Shown piece after piece: positions 7,304 to 51,817 of a stretch of 64,000 nucleotides of DNA; within the stretch, counting starts at the first letter, position 1; each line of letters opens with the position of its first letter. The translations under genes and the position numbers were made by a program. This DNA comes from a virus: the IMG/VR virus record IMGVR_UViG_3300037141_000243, positions 1 to 64,000 of that record. One strand, written 5' to 3'. The notes beneath the pieces are model-generated. The model was not told the origin of the DNA, made no database searches, and saw nothing but the letters and a program-made list of their open reading frames with translations.

Positions 7304-7909
7304 TTAAGTAGTAAGTAGTTCTAGTGCTTTTCTTAGTTTGGCAGCACGTACCCATTCAGATATTCGTTTACCTTGTGCTTTACGTTTTGCTGGTGTCCAA
7401 AAAGCCTTTTGAGCCGTGACAATTTCTGCACGTCGTTTCTTATCGGCCCACATCTCTAAAGATGCTTTTGAACGAATTGCATCTGCTTTGCGTCGAACTT
7501 CGGGGTCTTTCGATCCACCAACAGCGTATTGGTTACCCAACCCGGCTTGACTAATTTTCTTTCTGGCAGATTTGGAAAAAATCATATTTGTAGGGCCTTC
7601 CCCACCATCCGTTCGATTAACAAGCGGGCCTGTTCCTAAATCTTCCCGACCTATTACTTTAATCAAAGCCATTTCCATTTCAACGGCTTCTTTACGCGTT
7701 AAGCCAGTTCTAATTACACAAACAGGTAGCTTACCTTTTGTTCCACGAATAATGCGGGCCAGATGAAGATTAGTGTGTTGACCTCGTAAAGCTCTTTTAA
7801 TGTGCTTAAAAGGTCGGTCTTTATTTCCTTGTCCAACATAACAAGGAATTCCAGTCAAACGAAAATAAATGTAAACACAGAACGCGCACCACGGTATTCT
7901 TTTTGCCAC
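7304..7909 (-). CDS. GIY-YIG homing endonuclease 1
   Basis: 201 residues. The N-terminal GIY-YIG nuclease domain shows VYIYFR followed by GIPCYVGQG (the GIY and YIG strands), then Arg/Lys helices and TRKEAVEMEMALIKVIG with the conserved glutamates, ending GTGPLVNRTDGGEG. The rest is a basic DNA-binding tail with modular repeats (SARKKISQAG, RKAQGKRISEWV). The GTG at 7909 is preferred over a TTG at 7927 because GGGAGG lies five bases before it; the TTG lies inside the leader hairpin. It sits directly after the major capsid gene and shares its 5' leader with the GIY-YIG gene at 49.1-50.0 kb. Such genes spread by cutting alleles that lack them. Confidence 0.88.
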   Translation of the reverse strand: MAKRIPWCAFCVYIYFRLTGIPCYVGQGNKDRPFKHIKRALRGQHTNLHLARIIRGTKGKLPVCVIRTGLTRKEAVEMEMALIKVIGREDLGTGPLVNRTDGGEGPTNMIFSKSARKKISQAGLGNQYAVGGSKDPEVRRKADAIRSKASLEMWADKKRRAEIVTAQKAFWTPAKRKAQGKRISEWVRAAKLRKALELLTT

Positions 7910-7911
7910 AA

Positions 7912-7989
7912 GAACCTCCCGGTTCAATCCAAAGTGAAGACACGGCAGGTAGGTGGATAGCCTACTCTTCGGGGTATCCCCCTAGCCGG
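7912..7989 (-). ncRNA. Conserved structured leader of GIY-YIG gene 1
   Basis: Between the capsid stop and the nuclease start, the minus strand holds in order: CGGCTAGG, a GGGG/CCCC hairpin, CCCCGAA, a GTAGG/CCTAC hairpin whose loop contains ATCCA, TGCCG (pairs with the first CGGC), TGGAT (can pair with the ATCCA loop, a pseudoknot), then GAACC-GGGA-GGTTC, a hairpin with a GNRA loop that contains the ribosome binding site. The same blocks in the same order occur at 49997-50077 before another GIY-YIG gene, with compensating changes in the stems. Function unknown; translational control is the simplest idea. Confidence 0.6.
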
Positions 7990-8000
7990 ATCTAACTACG

Positions 8001-9023
8001 TTATTCGTAGGTCGCTGATAACACAGTTACAGCTTCCGGGCGGACGGCCCAGCCGGAAGAGATGCGCCATTCGGACAACACATCGATTGCGCCGCCGGGG
8101 ATGGGCGTCGGAATCTCACGCGGGGCTGCCATGTCATTGTACTGAAGGGTGCAGGCGTCGAAGCCCGGCTCCAGCTTGGCGAACTCGTTGGTGTTGATCT
8201 TGCCGCCATCCGGCTTCTGGACTTCTGGCATGGTGATGATAATGGCATCCGCACCGCCGCTGCCAGCACCGATCAGGGTGTCGTCATAGCACCACAGAAT
8301 TTCATCATCATTGGTATCCAGAACTTCCTTGACCACACCGGCGGTCGAGGTCGTGCCGGCACCCACGCGTTGGAATTGCGTAAGCTGGACGATGTTGGGG
8401 TATTCCATCTGGCCCAGATCACGCTGCGGTCCCAGGATGGTAAACTTGCGGCCAATACCCAGGGTATTGGTACGGGTCTTGATCGCAAGAATCTGGCTGA
8501 GAATGTAGAAAGCCAGTTGACCGTTGTCGTAGGTGACGATGGTATCGTTGTTAAACGCATCCGGGGGCAGGCTGACGGTGGTCGCTCCAGATGCGTGGAG
8601 CAAGCCCTCGCCGTTGGCCGGATTAAAGCCAGAGAGAAGGCCCGTGCGGGCAAGCTGGAAATGACCCTGCCGCATACCGAGGCGCTGGGCCTCGACAATG
8701 CTGACGCCCCATCGGGCGTTGGCAGCGGTATCGTGATGATCGTATTCCGCGCGCACCCGGAGCAGATAGGTGGGCGTGGATACCAGCGAGATGGTGGTGC
8801 TGATCGACGGCAGGTTGTTGTAGGCGGACTGGCCGGCAGCAACCTTGTTGCGGACGTCCATGCGTTTTACATAAGCATACAGATCGCCGTCCGACAGGCG
8901 GGTCTGCATTTCCCCGCCATAGAGAGTATCGAACGCACCGCTGGCCTGGGTATAGGGCAGGATGATCCGGGGCTCCATATAGTGGGGGCTAACGGTAACG
9001 AGGGCTGGTGCAAGACTTGACAT
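8001..9023 (-). CDS. Major capsid protein
   Basis: 340 residues, ATG 9023 with GGAGA upstream. Pattern typical of the DUF2184-type major capsid family (HK97 fold): an N-terminal arm, then RVRAEYDHHDTAANARWGVS, EAQRLGMRQGHFQLARTGLLSG, GLLHASGAT, GPQRDLGQMEYPN, and a beta-rich C-terminus. It is flanked by the decoration protein upstream and neck genes downstream. Family membership is recalled from sequence pattern, not from a search. Confidence 0.82.
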   Translation of the reverse strand: MSSLAPALVTVSPHYMEPRIILPYTQASGAFDTLYGGEMQTRLSDGDLYAYVKRMDVRNKVAAGQSAYNNLPSISTTISLVSTPTYLLRVRAEYDHHDTAANARWGVSIVEAQRLGMRQGHFQLARTGLLSGFNPANGEGLLHASGATTVSLPPDAFNNDTIVTYDNGQLAFYILSQILAIKTRTNTLGIGRKFTILGPQRDLGQMEYPNIVQLTQFQRVGAGTTSTAGVVKEVLDTNDDEILWCYDDTLIGAGSGGADAIIITMPEVQKPDGGKINTNEFAKLEPGFDACTLQYNDMAAPREIPTPIPGGAIDVLSEWRISSGWAVRPEAVTVLSATYE

Positions 9024-10881: not shown

Positions 10882-11715
10882 TTAAATAGCGGCTTGTTTG
10901 TTCTTCTTGGCGCGTCTTTTATTAGACGCGATTACCGCTGCGATTGTTCTGGCACGCGTAACAGGGTCAGACATTCGATCTTTAGCTGCTTTGCGATTAA
11001 TTTCTGTTTGTTTTGCGCGATAAATTGGATCGGCCCAATTCTTGTTATTGCGTTTTGTAGTAGCTTCACGCGCTGTAGCCGGCGGGGGTCGCCCATACAT
11101 CGGACTATTCTTTCCAGACATCGAAGCCCGGTATGCTTCATCCGCCCAAAGTTTCTTAGCGGCTTCGCTTGGTTTGCTGCTTGCCAAGCGGCCCCGGCTT
11201 ATACTGTCGCGATGCTCTTGGGTAATTGGTATACCTTTCCTTGGGGAAGGCTTACCTTTATTCCACGCAGGAATACCTTTCTTCCCCGCACTAATAGCAG
11301 CACATTCTTCCAGGGAGCGTTTACGACCTGTTAAGGAAGCTCGTCTTTTTTCATTGGTTTCTTTTGAAGGAATATGACCGGACATACCCTCACCACCATC
11401 AGTGAGATTAGCCAAGCGGCCCGTACCGTTATTAATCCTACCAAATTTAAGAATTAGTATGGATTCATACGCAAGGGCGTCTCTTTCCAAAAGACGCCCG
11501 CGAATAATTTTTCTTGGTACAAACCCCAATTCACGGATACGTTTTCTTATTGCATTTCGCTTGCGGATATTGGTGCAATGCTCATCAACATTTTCAGCGG
11601 CGGAGAAGTTTATACGACGACGCTGCCCTTTTCCAATATAAAAAGGATCAAGCATTTTTACATCCCGGTAAAGACCGTAAACGTAATATATTCTTTTTGA
11701 AACCTTAACTTTCAT
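10882..11715 (-). CDS. GIY-YIG homing endonuclease 2
   Basis: 277 residues. GIY-YIG domain: YYVYGLYRD then PFYIGKGQRRRI, RKRIRELG and YESILILKFGRINNGTG with the catalytic Glu, ending ANLTDGGEG. The C-terminal two thirds contain NUMOD3-like DNA-binding repeats (AWNKGKPSPRKG, SGKNSPMYGRP) and a basic helix. The ATG overlaps the stop of the NUDIX-protease gene as ATGA, so it is translated by coupling rather than from a leader like the other two GIY-YIG genes. It is inserted between protease and scaffold-like genes. Confidence 0.88.
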   Translation of the reverse strand: MKVKVSKRIYYVYGLYRDVKMLDPFYIGKGQRRRINFSAAENVDEHCTNIRKRNAIRKRIRELGFVPRKIIRGRLLERDALAYESILILKFGRINNGTGRLANLTDGGEGMSGHIPSKETNEKRRASLTGRKRSLEECAAISAGKKGIPAWNKGKPSPRKGIPITQEHRDSISRGRLASSKPSEAAKKLWADEAYRASMSGKNSPMYGRPPPATAREATTKRNNKNWADPIYRAKQTEINRKAAKDRMSDPVTRARTIAAVIASNKRRAKKNKQAAI

Positions 11716-49131: not shown

Positions 49132-49995
49132 CTATTTGGGCTTAGGGGGTTTACCATGCTTTTCCCGCCATTTGACCCAGCCAGCACTCATGGCAGCACA
49201 AGTCTTTTTACGAAAATCTAAGTCATTCTCCCAGCGGGCAGAATACCTAATACCGGCGGCTTTTAATTTTGCCACTACATCTGACCGCCCCATAGCCTGT
49301 TTAACAGCGACCTTTCTCCGTTCCTTCACACCAGGTTTTGCATTAGCCGCTTTAAGAATTTTACCTAAATTAGCACGCCACTTTGGATCGGCCCTTGTCG
49401 CTTTGTGTTTAGCTTTCACTTCCGGACGACTATACGCTTCCTTTGCTTTGGTGCTTTGTCCTTTACGCCAAACTACATCCGCGTGGGCTACCCTACATCT
49501 TTCCTTCACATCAGGCCGAAGATGAGCCGCTTTAAGAATTTTATTTCTTCTCTCTAAGAAACCCGGTTTCCGTAAAGTTGCCAAAGCAGCTTCTCTTTTC
49601 TTTGCTTTTACCTCCGGTTTTGCCAACGTCTCTTTAAGTACCATCGCCCTTCTCTTTCTGGCATCATCAGAAAGGGCTACTAAACCATCACCCCCGCACG
49701 TCATATTTGCTAAAGTACCAGTACCAAGATCAAGTCTACCATATCTAGTAATTAATCTTATTTCTAAAGCAACCGCCTCTGATTTAGTCAGACCCCCGGC
49801 AAAAACTTCATACAAAAGATTTTCAGCACCGTATTTACGAATGATGTTTCTAAAAATATTCTTTCGCTTTGCGGGTCGCTTTGCTGCTCTCAAATGTTCT
49901 TCTTTACGCTGTTTTCTTTTGCTTACCCCAATATAACACAGCACGCCATTAGGACGGCGGAATTGGTAAACGTAATATATGCCTAAACGTTTCAT
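49132..49995 (-). CDS. GIY-YIG homing endonuclease 3 with repeated DNA-binding modules
   Basis: 287 residues from ATG 49995, five bases after GGGAGG in the leader hairpin. GIY-YIG domain: YYVYQFRRPNGVLCYIGVSKR, RNIIRKYG, LEIRLITRYGRLDLGTGTL, ending MTCGGDGLVAL. The C-terminal half has about six copies of a short basic unit around xPxVKxRxxxA (for example PEVKAKKREAAL, PDVKERCRVAH, PGVKERRKVAV). It is placed immediately after the SNF2 helicase gene and shares its leader with GIY-YIG gene 1. Confidence 0.87.
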   Translation of the reverse strand: MKRLGIYYVYQFRRPNGVLCYIGVSKRKQRKEEHLRAAKRPAKRKNIFRNIIRKYGAENLLYEVFAGGLTKSEAVALEIRLITRYGRLDLGTGTLANMTCGGDGLVALSDDARKRRAMVLKETLAKPEVKAKKREAALATLRKPGFLERRNKILKAAHLRPDVKERCRVAHADVVWRKGQSTKAKEAYSRPEVKAKHKATRADPKWRANLGKILKAANAKPGVKERRKVAVKQAMGRSDVVAKLKAAGIRYSARWENDLDFRKKTCAAMSAGWVKWREKHGKPPKPK

Positions 49996-49996
49996 C

Positions 49997-50077
49997 AAAA
50001 CCTCCCGGTTCGATCTATCCTGGGAAAAAGCGCGGCAGCCAGTTGGATGGACTGGTTTTCGGGGATCAACCTAGCCG
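49997..50077 (-). ncRNA. Conserved structured leader of GIY-YIG gene 3
   Basis: Same ordered blocks as at 7912-7989: CGGCTAGG, GAT, CCCCGAA, a CCAGT/ACTGG hairpin with CCATCCA loop, CTGCCG closing on CGGC, GGAT able to pair with the ATCC loop, then AACC-GGGA-GGTT holding the ribosome site. The hairpin stem differs in sequence from that at 7.9 kb but is paired in both, which supports a conserved RNA structure. It begins ten bases after the helicase stop codon. Confidence 0.6.
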
Positions 50078-50087
50078 CAAACAGACC

Positions 50088-51644
50088 TTATATTACTTTG
50101 CCGGGATCACGCAAGAGCGCCCTGAAAACATCCTCACCCTGCTTGTGGAAATCGAGAATGCGTTGGTCAACAGTACCCTTACATACCAAATCTATCAGAA
50201 AACCAGGAAGCGTTTGTCCTTCCCTAAACGTCCTACGCTCAGATTGTTCTCTATCAACCACACCCACGGGACTCTCGTAATATATACAATAGTTAGCGAC
50301 CTGAAGGTTAAGGGCCATGCCGCCAACCCGCCAGTTAGTCACCAGAACCGTCATTCGCGGATCATCATCAAATTGCTTTTGCAGGGCGCGACTATCTTTG
50401 GTCCCGCCATATAACCACCCAGCTTTAATCTTGGCCTTTTCCAGCGCCTTGCAAATTTCCCTACCGCTGTGAACAAATTCGTGAAATACAACAGCCTTCC
50501 GGTTAACGGGCAATTCCATCAGTAATTCAACCAAGCGGTCCAATTTTGGATTTGAAGGAAATACCAACTCAGCCTTTTCCCCCGTCTCATCGTTTTTCCA
50601 TCCTAAGAAACCCCCACTAATTTGTCTCATGCGAAGAAACATATTTCGTATTTGTATACTGTCGCCTCTTGCAACGCGGAGAGCAAACAGGGCCTTGTCA
50701 TAATAAGCCCGCGCGTCTTCTGGCAACGATACCTTTTCTATAATACGGGTAACTGATGGGAGATTTTGACATTCGGCAGAGGAATAGGTAATTGATCTAT
50801 TCTCTAAAATTTCCCTCAACACATTCTCTTTATCTTTACAAAAAACATATTCATAACCGCCCCAGTAATTCTTCTTCTCTGTAAAGAACGCGGCGCGGAA
50901 GAGCCCTAGCGTGTCCCCGAGGGTTTCACCCCGGTCAACTAAATACATTTGCGACCACAACATCGTTGGGTCACGCCCAAACGGTCTGCCGGCCAGGGCG
51001 TAGCGATACTTAGCCTTCTTGGATATGGCGCGGCAAATGCGAAAAGTCAGCGACCCCATATTCCCAAGTTTTGTCGATTCATCGTAAACCACAGCCGTTA
51101 TATTGGCAGCAAAGCGATCAACCGCTTTCTGATTCAGGGCCAGCTTGATCTTGCCCTTTTTGTTGACGGTCTTCTTGGACAGCAACGAGGCAATCCCTGG
51201 GTATGTCAGAACGAGGAATCCGAAATCTAATTCAGCAAAGGTAAGCCATTTTTGGTCGCTGGAGGAATTGCCAATCACATCGTAAGGAAGAGTCATCTTC
51301 CATTTCTTGATCTGATCTTCCCAATTGTAGACAGCAGATTCAGACGGCACCAGAATCAGGATCGTGGGGTTGGCTTTGGTCTTGCTGAAAAGGTGGTGCA
51401 TCACCTCCAGCATAATCCGCGTCTTGCCTAATCCCATATCAAGCCACAGGGCGAGCTGAGGGTAGGCCAGGCACAACAGGATGCAGGCTTTTTGATGTTT
51501 GCGTAAAGGCTTGGATCGATCCGCCGGCCTGAACCCAATTGCCTTTAATTCATCGTCAAGGGTCTGTTCGGATAATTGCTTTACCCAGGCCAACGATGTA
51601 CGGGGTTGGCGGAAAAATTCCTTGACGGCATCAGGGTGGAGCAT
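50088..51644 (-). CDS. SNF2/UvsW-type helicase
   Basis: 518 residues. Walker A DMGLGKT at 69-75, TILILVPSESAV (motif Ia), VYDESTKLG (DE box variant), YALAGRP (motif III-like), then the second RecA domain AVVFHEFVHSG, VLVTNWRVGGMALNL and ending near RRTFREGQ (variant of the SNF2 arginine motif). Superfamily 2 translocase, probably acting on branched recombination intermediates like T4 UvsW. Start ATG 51644. Confidence 0.8.
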   Translation of the reverse strand: MLHPDAVKEFFRQPRTSLAWVKQLSEQTLDDELKAIGFRPADRSKPLRKHQKACILLCLAYPQLALWLDMGLGKTRIMLEVMHHLFSKTKANPTILILVPSESAVYNWEDQIKKWKMTLPYDVIGNSSSDQKWLTFAELDFGFLVLTYPGIASLLSKKTVNKKGKIKLALNQKAVDRFAANITAVVYDESTKLGNMGSLTFRICRAISKKAKYRYALAGRPFGRDPTMLWSQMYLVDRGETLGDTLGLFRAAFFTEKKNYWGGYEYVFCKDKENVLREILENRSITYSSAECQNLPSVTRIIEKVSLPEDARAYYDKALFALRVARGDSIQIRNMFLRMRQISGGFLGWKNDETGEKAELVFPSNPKLDRLVELLMELPVNRKAVVFHEFVHSGREICKALEKAKIKAGWLYGGTKDSRALQKQFDDDPRMTVLVTNWRVGGMALNLQVANYCIYYESPVGVVDREQSERRTFREGQTLPGFLIDLVCKGTVDQRILDFHKQGEDVFRALLRDPGKVI

Positions 51645-51682
51645 GATTTAAGACATACCCCGACCACACCCCTTACTTTGCG

Positions 51683-51817
51683 TTAGATAATCATCAGGAC
51701 TAAAAACATCGCAGCGCCGGATACGCATACGACAACCCATGCCAGCAAAAGCCAGAGTGCCCATTTAGGAAGTTGGGACAACCCACGCAATCGCTTTCCG
51801 GTGATCGGGATAATCAT
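51683..51817 (-). CDS. 44-residue membrane protein
   Basis: ATG at 51817 with AGGGAGA about six bases upstream; TAA 51683-51685. A basic N-terminus (ITGKRLRG) then one hydrophobic helix WALWLLLAWVVVCVSGAAMF and LVLMII. Strong ribosome site. Function unknown. Confidence 0.55.
   Translation of the reverse strand: MIIPITGKRLRGLSQLPKWALWLLLAWVVVCVSGAAMFLVLMII

Follow-up and report, generated by a model that had tools for sequence, protein, structure and literature searches.

The Shine-Dalgarno hairpins of two phage endonuclease genes form the 3' end of a widespread structured RNA that probably governs translation of the next gene

Why should two endonuclease genes of one virus carry the same hairpin over the site at which ribosomes bind, and to what larger structure does that hairpin belong? 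In the window (the whole 64,000-nt stretch of viral DNA that was analysed), AACCGGGAGGTT occurs exactly twice, both times on the minus strand (49999-50010 and 7913-7924), where 0.35 matches would be expected by chance with up to one mismatch allowed. Both occurrences form 5-bp hairpins in which GAACC pairs with GGTTC or GGTTT around a GGGA loop of the GNRA type (Table 1), with folding energies of -4.0 kcal/mol (z -2.2) at 49998-50011 and -6.7 kcal/mol (z -2.4) at 7912-7925, each in a 16-nt fold. The Shine-Dalgarno (SD) sequence GGGAGG, made up of the loop and the 3' arm, lies 5 nt 5' of ATG 49995-49993 and of GTG 7909-7907. The earlier note had described this arrangement, in which the ribosome site coincides with the loop and its 3' arm and precedes both starts by five bases, and the two exact copies in the window bear it out. 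As set out below, the SD hairpin of both genes forms the 3' end of a folded leader that occurs widely and was until now an orphan RNA family, and this leader probably governs when the gene that follows is translated.

Table 1. Positions in the window of the two leaders, their parts and the genes on either side
Feature	Coordinates	Strand	Details
SD hairpin, copy 2	49998..50011	-	GAACC GGGA GGTTT; SD GGGAGG at 50001-50006
SD hairpin, copy 1	7912..7925	-	GAACC GGGA GGTTC
Three-way-junction RNA, copy 2	50018..50081	-	P1 50081-50074 with 50036-50029; L3 loop CCATCCA 50050-50044
Three-way-junction RNA, copy 1	7925..7992	-	P1 7992-7985 with 7946-7939; L3 loop CTATCCA 7960-7954
Strand A, copy 2	50017..50020	-	GGAT; 4-bp pseudoknot with L3; 5 nt before SD hairpin; from L002, an identical copy
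Strand A, copy 1	7927..7931	-	TGGAT; 5-bp pseudoknot with L3; 1 nt before SD hairpin; from L001, an identical copy
GIY-YIG endonuclease ORF, copy 2	49132..49995	-	287 aa from ATG 49995; PF01541 23.2 bits, cut-off 22.6
GIY-YIG-like endonuclease ORF, copy 1	7304..7909	-	201 aa from GTG 7909; PF22945 25.3 bits, below cut-off 27
Gene upstream of copy 2	50088..51644	-	518 aa; helicase-like (sequence reading); stop ends 6 nt before RNA
Gene upstream of copy 1	8001..9023	-	340 aa; phrog_6671, unknown function ('capsid' is a context label); stop ends 8 nt before RNA

An identical copy of the shorter endonuclease ORF matches the homing endonuclease family phrog_314 (E 1.5e-6). The longer ORF contains a direct repeat (49307-49363 and 49487-49543; 57 nt, 75% identical), the units of which look lysine-rich and DNA-binding-like by eye.

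The 'adjacent pseudoknot' to which the same note had pointed proved real in kind, as the stretches 50018-50081 and 7925-7992 match the Rfam family RF02996 (int-alpA), with 30.8 bits (E 5.7e-6) and 34.9 bits (E 5.0e-7), respectively, over the 72,849-base virus record. Neither copy reaches the gathering cut-off of 35.8, and a scan of the whole window at that cut-off gave no match. A second covariance model, R2, was built from 60 leaders from which L001-L003 (the window copies and near copies of them) had been left out. It recovers 7907-7992 (50.9 bits, E 9e-13) as well as 49993-50081 (37.5 bits, E 7.8e-9), with no further match worth mentioning. Because the Rfam scores fall below the cut-off, yet a model that left these copies out finds both, we call them divergent and int-alpA-type. 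They share with RF02996 the three-way junction and its near-invariant bases, including the hallmarks CUAG, GA in loop 2, CGAANA and CUG; in copy 2, P2 is shortened and has two non-pairs. Folding restricted to nested pairs did not cleanly recover the junction in either window leader (z 0.59 and -1.19). No riboswitch family of Rfam matched the window RNA, and HDV-like, twister, hammerhead and group I intron RNAs were ruled out by eye together with this lack of an Rfam match. On balance, we favour the view that both leaders are diverged copies of the int-alpA RNA acting in cis to control translation.

Searches with a core pattern matched at least 119 stretches of viral contigs; in bacterial genomes, mostly Proteobacteria by record title, they matched 79. 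Among the viral matches listed, 124 pattern matches in 181 loci gave 101 distinct stretches, 93 of them with a P3 stem and a start codon; 90 of these 93 passed the P1 filter and were reduced to 54 at 80% similarity. Fifty-three of the 54, combined with the bacterial leaders (72 of 76 past the filter), gave 97 non-redundant leaders, and the 89 with a start codon 34-52 nt after CTG (47 viral, 42 bacterial) made up the test set, the remaining eight being out of range or missing a feature. Both scans selected by core pattern, so that the conservation of CTAG, GA, CGAA and CTG is partly imposed; the pairings tested lie outside the patterns. Likewise, the rule for choosing start codons rewarded the presence of an SD, not of a hairpin. 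Re-scoring of 37 loci with the RF02996 model itself placed every one of the 17 from bacteria, and 18 of the 20 from viruses, above its cut-off. The junction comprises P1, P2 and P3 with near-invariant UA, GA, GAAAA and CU. In an alignment of 63 hand-picked leaders out of the 89, 15 of its 17 pairs vary on both sides, and 90.8% of junction cells are paired, as against 61.2% when shuffled and 35-46% when slid.

The same order is repeated in the 89 phage and bacterial leaders: the junction, a pseudoknot between its loop L3 and strand A, the SD hairpin directly after, and then the start codon, 34-52 nt past the junction (a range that was itself a selection criterion). In 64 of the 89, strand A abuts the SD hairpin (gap of -1 to 1 nt). 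The 26 nt before RNA-led starts have a mean fold z of -1.40 (n=89), whereas the controls, 400 of 471 further starts with an SD at these loci, have a mean of -0.09 (Mann-Whitney P 1.6e-20). Moreover, the arms of the SD hairpin co-vary (11.6 versus 9.07 permuted, 0/20,000; 89 leaders, with permutations that ignore relatedness). These findings support selection across the whole family for a hairpin that hides the SD. What is kept is where the SD lies, namely across the loop and the 3' arm of a hairpin that closely precedes the start; a GNRA loop as a conserved feature had to be given up, as the loops range from 4 to 10 nt across the family. In all eight E. coli loci compared, where the RNA has an integrase gene on one side and a 'hypothetical protein' on the other, the end of the R2 model coincides with the RefSeq start codon. 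Because of the near-fixed distance to the start codon, the SD hairpin and this coincidence with RefSeq starts, the RNA is probably a 5' leader rather than a free-standing RNA, and control of translation in cis is likely.

The loop L3 appears to have two partners. Its complementarity to strand A is 13.8 versus 9.1 permuted, and that to the SD stretch 13.0 versus 10.5, with 0/20,000 permutations in each case (89 leaders; permutations ignore relatedness). Both signals persist in sets of 41, 25 and 13 mutually dissimilar leaders (0/10,000 each), and the same test on upstream and coding stretches gave no signal. A slight excess over permutation remains when A and B are reversed (z 3.9 and 2.3), which indicates a small share of base composition in the signal. 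At least 4 bp can form between L3 and A in 87 of the 89 leaders and between L3 and the SD stretch in 84, the latter helix spanning three or more nucleotides of the SD itself in 74, and the mean predicted duplex energies are -6.9 and -7.1 kcal/mol, respectively. Identical runs common to A and the SD stretch amount to 4.6 versus 3.7 (89 leaders). The clearest cases of dual pairing by eye are L082, L126, L164, L181 and L245; the window copies are weak examples, with 5 and 4 bp between L3 and A and -3.3 and -5.5 kcal/mol for L3 with the SD. Such complementarity of L3 to the SD itself, as strong as that to A, suggests a two-state switch.

If so, L3 would be an anti-SD loop that exchanges between strand A and the SD. 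The state in which L3 pairs with A, leaving the SD only in a weak hairpin, would most likely be the permissive one and that in which L3 pairs with the SD the closed one, although both this direction and the trigger are guesses. Because the SD would be partly covered in both states, output is expected to be low or conditional, and initiation would stay low until one state is fixed. This could come about in two ways. First, a ribosome terminating at the upstream stop could reach P1, because that stop often lies no more than 20 nt from it (in 25 of the 47 viral leaders and in 28 of the 42 from bacteria), and translational coupling to the upstream gene is thus possible. Second, a ligand or protein could be held by the near-invariant junction. 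Taken by itself, the exchange of L3 between A and the SD is somewhat on the improbable side. As a tentative proposal, to which we give a little less than even weight, int-alpA would be a phage-borne switch in which L3, a mimic of the anti-SD, moves at equal predicted energy between the SD and a decoy, strand A, which nearly duplicates the SD stretch of the same gene. Whether the cargo genes of a phage or integrative element are translated would then depend on a factor bound to the junction or on a ribosome departing from the upstream gene.

The strongest competitor of this switch is a static leader, in which junction and hairpin would merely set or lower translation, or couple it to the upstream gene, with neither switch nor ligand, and in which the pairing of L3 with the SD would be a by-product of an SD-like A. 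The closeness of the upstream stop to P1 agrees with it equally well, and the downstream genes are too varied for one regulated pathway. Against this, the covariation of L3 with the SD, leader by leader, exceeds what a common SD motif would give (0/20,000, and 0/10,000 with the 13 dissimilar leaders), and the near-invariant unpaired bases of the junction go beyond the needs of a plain roadblock. We regard a static leader as possible but rather doubtful.

A further reading follows from the Rfam entry, which types the family as 'Gene; sRNA' where we see a 5' leader, and from whose structure line both the L3-A pseudoknot and the SD hairpin are absent. A trans-acting small RNA would use its L3, anti-SD-like in many copies, on other mRNAs. 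However, such an RNA would leave unexplained the fixed distance to the start codon, the SD hairpin and the covariation of L3 in cis with both A and the SD, and a scan for the sigma-70 consensus gave no promoter match on the minus strand in 49900-51700. Action in trans is accordingly unlikely, and translational control in cis is the reading that we follow here.

The genes beside the leader bear on the question of whether it belongs to endonucleases. Downstream of 51 viral leaders lie HNH, GIY-YIG, DUF1376/primosomal, primase-like, ParB-like and other genes; Pfam assigns HNH_3 to five of these genes, HNH to four, GIY-YIG to two and LEM-3_GIY-YIG to one, and individual HNH PHROGs match up to seven of the 51. 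The 66 bacterial downstream genes are mostly unrelated to one another by eye. On the upstream side, 15 of 40 bacterial loci have a gene that matches the phage integrase family, whereas the viral loci have genes for head and tail proteins, among others. Among relatives of the GIY-YIG genes, 18 of 19 loci have no leader, the one exception being the identical copy, and a third GIY-YIG ORF of the window (10882-11715, minus strand) is likewise without one in the R2 search. This third ORF has no Pfam match and was read as GIY-YIG by motif; its tail looks NUMOD-like by eye.

The site of copy 1, the capsid site, was compared across 80 relatives of its upstream gene. At L267:3532-3628 the RNA is found there before the next structural gene, with no endonuclease; at L300:3520-3640 a related GIY-YIG gene is preceded not by the RNA but by a long 9-bp hairpin and a T run; and Klebsiella phage RothC has neither RNA nor endonuclease. 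These three cases contradict a leader that always moves with its endonuclease. A possible empty site is seen in L265 (Caldibacillus phage CBP1), which matches L089 over the last part of the upstream gene but not over the leader and HNH gene that L089 carries.

Hairpins that sequester the ribosome-binding site have been documented for the T4-type homing endonucleases I-TevI, I-TevII, I-TevIII, segB and mobE, where, as in the window copies, the hairpin covers the SD of an endonuclease gene, there on a polycistronic mRNA (accessible part of PMC2988022). The hairpin could therefore be a repression hairpin of the I-TevI/mobE type that lies beside an unrelated RNA by chance, especially considering that many of the viral downstream genes are endonucleases. 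In those T4 genes, however, a late promoter frees the SD, and the accessible part of that source mentions no conserved junction or pseudoknot (PMC2988022). The window element, in contrast, is common to unrelated genes, before many of which the junction and hairpin follow each other in the same order and at a constant spacing, and the leader is missing at 18 of the 19 GIY-YIG relative loci and at L300, all of which makes a chance neighbour very improbable. Because the downstream genes are diverse, GIY-YIG relatives lack the leader and L267 has the leader with no endonuclease, the leader is not endonuclease-specific. Thus, of the earlier note's proposal, the masked ribosome site gains support from the family-wide selection on the hairpin, whereas the reading that ties it to homing endonucleases gains none. 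A transcription terminator or attenuator formed by P1 and a U-rich linker is just as improbable, for although T makes up 41% of the linkers that follow P1 and G 5%, a run of at least four T occurs in only 16 of 82 and one of at least five in three, a rarity that rules it out as a conserved element, and no terminator was called at the copy 2 leader.

Pairing of a loop with a downstream strand at or near the SD is known from the preQ1-II and preQ1-III riboswitches and from the pseudoknotted leaders of ribosomal protein genes and T4 gene 32. The leaders described here resemble these in that respect, but gave no match to the Rfam families concerned; what would set their putative switch apart is that L3 has a choice between A and the SD. 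The int-alpA family was reportedly described in 2017. In the literature searched, most of it outside subscription papers, RF02996 is named nowhere and int-alpA in a single paper, as a table entry and a note. As far as these searches show, the reading as a leader is new, as are the hairpin over the SD, the pseudoknot of L3 with A and the alternative pairing of L3 with the SD. An orphan but widespread RNA family thereby gains a testable role, that of a leader acting in cis and carrying its own copy of the SD as a decoy. The genes concerned encode endonucleases, replication proteins and cargo of unknown function in phages and integrated elements. If this is true, one translational gate would be common to many phage accessory genes, and a signal from phage or host, the same for all of them, may be bound by the core of the junction.

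Two further observations concern variation within the family. In E. coli, the leaders beside yicC (L261-L263 and L355-L359) are well conserved while the downstream gene varies by strain, as if one leader served exchangeable cargo; between L356 and L263, P1 is swapped for a different, fully paired stem and the core is unchanged. The viral leaders L065, L066, L070, L101 and L135 share a compact sub-layout, in which the start codon lies 27-34 nt past the junction and the pseudoknot adjoins a bare SD; they mostly precede a protein of about 940 aa that looks primase-like by eye.
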